This document shows, in pieces, positions 25,920 through 26,810 of a stretch of DNA of 34,433 nt. Every line of letters starts with the position of its first letter. The stretch's first letter is position 1. The notes under the pieces were generated by a model. The model was not told the origin of the DNA, did not search any database, and saw only the letters and a program-made list of their open reading frames with translations. Both the position numbers and the translations under genes were made by a program. This stretch comes from Halorubrum lipolyticum DSM 21995 (lineage in GTDB: Archaea; Halobacteriota; Halobacteria; Halobacteriales; Haloferacaceae): contig NZ_AOJG01000006.1 of the NCBI RefSeq assembly GCF_000337375.1, forward strand, positions 1-34,433, in the 5' to 3' direction.

Positions 25920-26810
25920 ATGGACAAACAGGCCGTCCGCGAGGCCGTCTGGGACGCCTTCGAGGCGGGCGACCAGGCGCGGTTCCCGTTCCCGTCCCGC
26001 GACCGGATCCCGAACTTCGCCGGCGCCGACGCCGCGTGCGAGCGGCTGACCGACACCGACGCGTGGGCGGCGGCGTCGACGCTGAAGTGCAACCCCGACG
26101 CGCCGCAGCTCCCCGTGCGACGCGCCGCGCTCCGCGACGGGAAGACGGTGTACGTCGCCCAGCCGCGGCTCCGCGACGCCGACCCCTTCCTCCGGCTCGA
26201 CCCGGAGGCCATCGAGGCCGACGACGACGCCGATATCGACGACGCCACCACCGTCTCGGGCATCTCGACGCACGGCACCCCGGTCGCGCCCGAGGACGTG
26301 CCGCACGTCGACCTCGTGGTCGCCGGCTCGGTAGGCGTCACGACCGACGGTACCCGGATCGGGAAGGGCGAGGGGTACAGCGACCTGGAGTGGGGCGTGC
26401 TCAGCGAGCTCGGCGCCGTCGACAGAGAGGCGCAAAGCGCCTCTAGCGGCGAGGGACAGCGTCCCTCGGGCAACCGGGCTTCGCCCGGTGACAGTCGGAC
26501 GCAGTCCGACGACAGTGAGGCGCTCCGCGCTAGCAGCCGGACGCAGTCCGACGACCACGCGACCGTCGTGGCGACCACGGTCCACGAGCTGTCGGTCCTC
26601 GACGGTCCCGAGTCACCGATCGCGGACCCCGGCGAGCTTCCAGGGCCCGACGCCCACGACGTCCCCCTCGATCTGGTGGTGACTCCGGAACGAACGATTC
26701 GGACCGAGACGCCCTACGCGCGTCCGGAGGGGATCGACTGGGACGCGCTCGACGACGAGACGTTGGACGAGATTCCGGTGTTGGCCGAGCGCGCGCCGGA
26801 GGGGAGGTGA
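25920..26810 (+). CDS. 5-formyltetrahydrofolate cyclo-ligase family protein with in-frame hairpin-array insertion
   Basis: The 296-residue protein resembles archaeal MTHFS-like proteins: RFPFPSRDRIPNFAGADAA near the N-terminus, TVYVAQPRL, DLVVAGSVGVTTDGTRIG followed by KGEGYSDLEWGVL, and VPLDLVVTPERTIRTE near the end. The enzyme family converts 5-formyl-THF to 5,10-methenyl-THF using ATP. Residues about 169-212 (Arg, Ser, Asp, Gly, Gln-rich; for example SRTQSDDSEALRASSRTQSD) interrupt the family sequence between GVLSELGAVD and HATVVATTVHEL. They are encoded by consecutive DNA palindromes at 26426-26552. The insertion keeps the frame. Without it, length would match the usual 240-255. The start MDKQAVREAV fits a weak TATA about 28 nt upstream (gactactt); an upstream ATG at 25860 is rejected. 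Confidence 0.82.
   Translation: MDKQAVREAVWDAFEAGDQARFPFPSRDRIPNFAGADAACERLTDTDAWAAASTLKCNPDAPQLPVRRAALRDGKTVYVAQPRLRDADPFLRLDPEAIEADDDADIDDATTVSGISTHGTPVAPEDVPHVDLVVAGSVGVTTDGTRIGKGEGYSDLEWGVLSELGAVDREAQSASSGEGQRPSGNRASPGDSRTQSDDSEALRASSRTQSDDHATVVATTVHELSVLDGPESPIADPGELPGPDAHDVPLDLVVTPERTIRTETPYARPEGIDWDALDDETLDEIPVLAERAPEGR
26426..26552. repeat. Array of six short palindromes inside a coding gene
   Basis: Stems and loops in order are as follows. 26426-26444: agaggcgc with loop aaa, 8 bp. 26450-26468: cgagggac with loop agc, 8 bp. 26473-26489: accgggc with loop ttc, 7 bp. 26494-26510: gtcggac with loop gca, 7 bp. 26517-26533: gaggcgc with loop tcc, right arm degenerate. 26536-26552: gccggac with loop gca, one mismatch. 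An 18-bp direct repeat (cggacgcagtccgacgac) at 26496-26513 and 26538-26555 shows a 42-bp (14-codon) duplication. The array has no stop codon in the gene's frame. Confidence 0.92.

Follow-up and report, generated by a model that had tools for sequence, protein, structure and literature searches.

A hairpin array within a folate-enzyme gene

What is a row of DNA hairpins doing inside the reading frame of a folate-enzyme gene? The question arises in the 34,433-nt stretch of Halorubrum lipolyticum DSM 21995 DNA analysed here (the window), where a forward-strand open reading frame at 25920–26810 encodes a 296-residue protein of the 5-formyltetrahydrofolate cyclo-ligase (5-FCL) family (PF01812, E = 4.6e-17). 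The protein begins MDKQAV, matching the starts of its orthologues, which are found in Halorubrum and beyond. Within the gene, also on the forward strand, lies a 132-nt insert (26424–26555; 44 codons, the DREAQSASSGEGQRPSGNRASPGDSRTQSDDSEALRASSRTQSDD region) that contains no stop and keeps the frame. The original prediction of six palindromes adding about 44 residues here is correct in both coordinates and sequence, and its proposed comparison with close relatives finds that most 5-FCL orthologues lack these residues altogether. The six hairpins (loops aaa, agc, ttc, gca, tcc and gca) follow one another head to tail, with perfect palindromes at the first four positions and degenerate ones at the final two. 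The 18-bp direct repeat with a 42-bp period that had been described is contained in a 22-nt repeat (26492–26513 and 26534–26555; 95% identity, 42-nt spacing).

The fold of the insert DNA outperforms 200 of 200 dinucleotide shuffles (z = -2.9). It packs into 70 nt four perfect hairpins with 3-nt loops and stems of 7 bp or more; the whole window holds 14, whereas resampled windows average about 8. A CRISPR array was considered and rejected on the basis of the perfect hairpins, the short constant spacers and the location inside genes. The GAC (Asp) codon at the left junction (26421–26423, forward strand) is the putative target, the empty site of relatives reading GTCGAC/GACGAG or similar, with the slash at the insertion point. 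In an AlphaFold model of the protein (45 orthologues as input; mean pLDDT 87, core above 90), insert residues ~171–212 have pLDDT values of ~48–55 between helix 153–163 and strand 216–220, and are predicted to form a disordered loop.

Structure of the 45-nt unit and of its array

We compared the 5-FCL orthologues by nucleotide length between conserved anchors. The gap is 15 nt in most orthologues from Halorubrum, Halobellus, Haloparvum and Halonotius, 60 nt in H. kocurii, H. salsamenti and H. californiense, 105 nt in H. aidingense, H. amylolyticum, H. persicum, H. yunnanense and SD626R, and 147 nt in the window. The steps are therefore +45, +90 and +132 (135 less 3), which gives a unit of 45 nt. 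The repeating element is a pair of hairpins, not a single hairpin, and consists of AGC, hairpin A (17 nt), TGGCAG, hairpin B (15 nt) and CGAC. Its stems are 7 bp (A) and 6 bp (B), its loops are 3 nt, it ends in AGC and CGAC, and it has neither a gene nor a terminal inverted repeat.

The insert consists of three such units, all on the forward strand: unit A, split by unit B, followed by unit C with a 3-nt deletion. The left part of unit A (26424–26447) carries hairpin A1, with stem 26426–26433/26437–26444 and loop AAA, and its right part (26493–26513) carries a hairpin at 26494–26510, with loop GCA, and the terminal CGAC. Nested between them is the complete 45-nt unit B (26448–26492), with hairpins at 26450–26468 (loop AGC) and 26473–26489 (loop TTC). 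It scores 58.3 bits (E = 4.2e-20) with R1, a covariance model built from the 45-nt unit. Unit C (26514–26555, 42 nt; 34.5 bits, E = 4.2e-10) has a decayed hairpin A that has lost 3 nt and a hairpin B that repeats that of unit A; the age and decay suspected for the degenerate copies hold for this third unit.

In most species with the 105-nt form, a full second unit (GAGGGAC..GTCCCTC GGGCAA CCGGGCttcGCCCGG TGAC) lies within the first, separating its hairpins A and B, and the window array has, beyond this form, an extra third unit minus 3 nt. Within an array, copy number changes in steps of whole 45-nt units, probably by new nested insertion or by slippage between GRCAGC spacers. On a gene tree built without the insert and of modest support, the site switches between filled and empty at least nine times. 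Recombination is likely among these changes, some of which may reflect homologous exchange between species and not a new insertion. H. halophilum carries an independent second unit in another 5-FCL loop, after residue ~102 (L061 3307–3351; also L154 1501–1545). At other loops, four orthologues (L063, L064, L067 and L073) show Gly/Asp-rich length variation that is unrelated to the unit.

Insertion into unrelated genes in a single frame

Filled and empty loci were compared in 11 genes, namely 5-FCL and those for sulfite reductase, acetyl-CoA synthetase (ACS), purA (two sites), leuC (aconitase family), DUF7095, a formate dehydrogenase-like molybdopterin oxidoreductase, DUF255, PspA, a zinc-finger protein and purD. 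With few exceptions, the insertions sit directly after a GAC codon, at a point where relatives are continuous, and lengthen the gene by exactly 45 or 90 nt, or by 138 nt when adjoining GAC codons are included; the second purA site is in a variable-length loop and has a less sharp insertion boundary. The insertions in purA, leuC and fdhA were found in just one or two species. Pfam domains span the insertion (Adenylsucc_synt, Aconitase, DUF7095, CobN, Glyco_hydro_68, tRNA-synt_1 and others), and copies found across the order (L195–L254) lie in valyl/leucyl-type tRNA synthetases, CobN, Obg-like GTPase, DNA polymerase X, beta-CASP nucleases, M20 peptidases, HerA-like helicases, levansucrase, histidine kinases and others.

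When 129 units were sorted by codon usage, 59 were clearly coding, as judged from codon usage together with open frames and Pfam. Every one of the 59 is 45 nt long, free of stops and in sense phase 0, reading as Asp followed by SEAQRASGSRTQSGD, so the avoidance of stops in the host frame noted for the array extends to all of them. Among the remaining units, 24 are 47–51 nt long and 11 of 45 nt have a stop in the phase-0 frame, usually where a GTA loop gives TAG. Sense phase 0 is expected at 43% of GAC/GTC sites in the coding DNA of the window, and the chance that all 40 independent sites would fall in it is ~1e-15. This bias is not explained by stops, because none of the six frames of the consensus unit contains one. 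The frame used is the most hydrophilic of the six and net neutral; of the others, four have charges of +3 to +5 and one, although neutral, is much less hydrophilic. We infer that selection in an acidic proteome acts against the other frames. A unit placed after a GAC (Asp) codon would lengthen the protein by exactly 15 residues, hydrophilic and net neutral.

In histidine kinases the unit lies at the N-box, where the protein reads RN, SVEHGSTGSRTESDD and then (S/A)VEHG (L163 1501–1635, L164 1501–1545, L176 1456–1545, L240, L245 and L251). Hairpin A of these units consists of the native N-box codons and their complement, and host sequence seems to have been copied into the hairpin.

Pairing evidence for a DNA-level palindrome

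In 30 distinct units from across the order, picked by a structural model, 13 of 13 pairs are Watson–Crick (100% paired), with 60 compensatory double-change cells compared with 15 in shuffles; slid controls of the same units are 30–47% paired. The count was repeated on 119 units from a pair-blind matrix. In this set 95 units are perfectly paired, and the 41 mispairs include 5 GT and 15 AC, showing no G-U preference. Selection on RNA would favour G-U pairs; the lack of such a bias indicates that the palindrome is preserved, or arose, as DNA. A GNA loop closes hairpin B in 88 of the 119 units, and C-GNA-G forms an unusually stable DNA mini-hairpin. In the same hairpin context L001 has the loop TTC and L019 the loop GAA, so that both loop orientations occur with identical flanking sequence (GGGCTTCGCCC / GGGCGAAGCCC), which suggests inversion of the hairpin tip.

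Of 75 distinct in-frame units, 46 are preceded by the codon GAC (9% in the background), 10 by AAC, mostly in histidine kinases, and 4 by GAT; the third base of the preceding codon is C in 70. Flanks other than GAC thus also occur (AAC in histidine kinases, ATC, GGC and AGC). The unit itself ends in GAC, and a 3-bp duplication would give the same sequence as a target motif at both ends.

Dispersal across haloarchaea

BLAST searches with the array found further copies in its own genome and in 38 of 59 relatives, disposing of the possibility, raised with the original prediction, that the units occur nowhere else. The other refuting outcome, distant orthologues with the residues but no palindromes, does not hold either, most orthologues of this gene being without the residues. 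Covariance model R1, whose per-genome counts are lower bounds, finds at least 83 matches in the H. lipolyticum DSM 21995 genome at E 0.01. The unit is present in 51 of 52 genomes of the genus and, at E 1e-6, in 284 of 342 genomes and 74 of 89 genera of the order, with one genome per species; the units sampled are the best-scoring ones and some loci are orthologous. Outside the order, a phylum-wide draw of ~132 genomes gave one borderline match. An exact unit motif matched 76 times in 39 genomes, and its reversed control did not match. The 45-bp unit is thus a dispersed family spread through the haloarchaeal order, which supports the earlier suggestion of a non-autonomous mobile element that can enter coding genes.

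No BLAST match to the array, in nucleotide or peptide mode, was found in plasmid and phage collections, and two degenerate unit patterns, one of which recovers 86 of the 326 loci collected here, had no match in 2.9 million viral contigs. Rfam has no family matching the unit, and the PDB has no chain with its peptide, only distant 5-FCL folds. In the open-access literature, with subscription papers outside the search, we found no report of a haloarchaeal in-frame palindrome family or its peptide.

In draft assemblies, units lie at contig ends (in G000, C18:37–83, C39:17–67 and C12:73–121; several contigs of G060), and runs of N interrupt the arrays of L187, L190 and L191. Copy numbers are probably underestimated, because repeats break assemblies.

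Origin of the insert

We consider it very probable that the insert comprises three tandem copies of a dispersed 45-bp palindromic element, mobile, non-autonomous and REP/PATE-like, whose length and peptide allow it to persist in genes as a disordered loop. The unit would enter DNA mostly 3' of GAC, which would be either duplicated at insertion or the cleavage or target motif at both unit ends. With a length of 45 bp and no stops in the sense frame, insertion after an Asp codon would be an addition of 15 residues, and selection would retain only copies in that frame and orientation, in loops that tolerate added residues.

From these sequence comparisons we infer mobility at the DNA level. A single-stranded hairpin intermediate, as in REP or core-deleted IS605/PATE elements, is quite possible if still doubtful, and the mover could be an enzyme from another element, an enzyme of a different class, or microhomology. 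PF01797 (the IS200/IS605 Y1 transposase) has no match in the genome of the window, despite its more than 80 units, nor in the unit-rich genome G027, while unit-poor genomes carry several. A unit lies near 2 of the 22 Y1 loci scanned (tnpB-only elements being outside the scan), about as expected by chance. With no PF01797 here and no correlation with unit number, a Y1 transposase was rejected as the resident mobiliser. A bolder proposal, which we put forward only tentatively, is that evolution has shaped the element for life in genes. Its length and stop-free frame, together with a net-neutral peptide and the preference for Asp codons, would make insertions nearly harmless; it would move without a Y1 transposase and, time and again across the haloarchaea, have given core enzymes new disordered loops.

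Spread might instead have needed no dedicated enzyme, with hairpin-protected short single-stranded DNA or replication template switching acting through microhomology at GAC and quasipalindrome correction keeping the stems perfect. Junctions that share only 3 bp, the lack of a linked transposase among the loci found, near-perfect Watson–Crick palindromes with many stem variants, and the native N-box codons in hairpin A of the histidine-kinase units are all consistent with this route; however, the recurrence of identical units with a fixed 45-nt boundary at sites unrelated to each other, and a strong GAC preference, resemble enzymatic end recognition, and we regard the route as somewhat unlikely. 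The units could also be old coding repeats, no longer mobile, whose spread among haloarchaea was due mainly to gene transfer and gene conversion. Positions common to several species (5-FCL, DUF7095 and ACS), the minimum of nine state changes counted for the 5-FCL site on a weakly supported tree, and decayed copies (unit C of the window, L027 and L048) point in this direction. The purA, leuC and fdhA insertions limited to one or two species, the two different sites each in purA and 5-FCL, and identical 45-mers in different genes (including L135–L138) argue against it and make it unlikely.

Two further explanations place selection on a product rather than on the DNA. An element acting as RNA, whether a structured mRNA insert, a terminator, a riboregulator or a self-splicing insert, would account for the strong folds and covariation and for similar hairpin arrays in intergenic regions. 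The structured-RNA reading in the original prediction is nevertheless weakened by the mispair spectrum, and copies in dozens of unrelated genes, kept as an in-frame peptide of fixed frame, together with the lack of an Rfam match, make it very unlikely. That the peptide itself is a selected linker or motif, the palindromes being a by-product of codon usage, would fit its single hydrophilic, net-neutral frame. It is extremely unlikely, since peptide changes follow compensatory stem changes in the DNA and intergenic copies exist, including the 24 units with a length that is not a multiple of 3 and the 11 units of 45 nt with in-frame stops.

Relation to known palindromic elements

Palindromes inserted in frame in genes are known from Rickettsia (RPE), Wolbachia (WPE) and Methanocaldococcus jannaschii (PMC2996958, PMC10969869), and intragenic REPs from several bacteria (PMC3733652). 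The haloarchaeal unit joins the protein-coding palindromic repeats as a variant. Like the Rickettsia, Wolbachia and M. jannaschii elements, it is palindromic DNA found in frame in unrelated housekeeping genes, in unstructured segments that are missing from orthologues (PMC2996958, PMC10969869, PMC3733652). Three of the features that define the RPE type are present: a nucleotide palindrome, in-frame residence in many unrelated genes, and orthologues without the insert. Compared by description only, the unit differs from RPEs (~100–150 bp) in being a fixed 45-bp double hairpin, associated with GAC, with a single peptide frame and arrays of whole units, and it spans an entire archaeal order whereas the RPE type is limited to one genus.

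REP, BIME and REPIN sequences of the GTAG and CGTC families are likewise short dispersed palindromes, paired or clustered and sometimes intragenic (PMC3733652), but they are mostly extragenic and head-to-head, with a GTAG (RAYT-linked) or CGTC tag, stems of 8–9 bp and loops of 4–5 nt. In contrast, the hairpins of the unit are paired head-to-tail with 3-nt loops, and the unit is mostly intragenic among the order-wide top matches. Its ends, AGC and CGAC, lack the GTAG-type terminal tag of REPs with a RAYT, and the Y1 searches above give no cognate transposase in the genome of the window or in G027. It also differs from CGTC REPs in tag, stem and loop sizes, the reverse-strand GTCG being only a weak resemblance. 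PATEs are short, transposase-free elements of Haloquadratum walsbyi (PMC3119063). PATEs and core-deleted IS605-type elements resemble the unit in being haloarchaeal and transposase-free, with two near-terminal palindromes, a short target oligonucleotide, no inverted repeats and lengths down to 52 bp. PATE termini match resident IS605-type transposons, whereas we found no shared ends in a scan of 22 Y1 loci; the passages of PMC3119063 consulted mention no in-frame coding copies. A MITE would have a target duplication and terminal inverted repeats; the unit lacks the latter (AGC...GAC), and a 3-bp GAC duplication looks the same as the element end.

The family is a source, apparently recent and extending over the whole order, from which essential archaeal enzymes have received in-frame insertions, resolved to the exact unit and target codon, and many matched empty and filled orthologues are available. 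An old question posed by the Rickettsia palindromes, how selfish DNA can add residues without killing its host, thus becomes testable in genetically tractable, polyploid haloarchaea. Insertions in haloarchaeal protein alignments may be copies of such an element rather than salt adaptations.

Intergenic copies and related arrays

Intergenic regions of Halorubrum carry mosaic arrays of units with longer stems, 47–51 nt in length (L171–L194 in the genome of the window; L016, L022 and L023). Long repeats adjoin these units, for example CACCTCACGCCTCCCCAGCCTCGTC and CTGCCCCTTTGAGTCCC, of which the second resembles the 3' part of a tRNA. Other hairpin arrays with longer stems and a different sequence, for example CGAGACGCC..GGCGTCTCG, occur at L017 1121–1220, L020 746–800, L045 2827 and L074 1311, and are possibly a related intergenic family.
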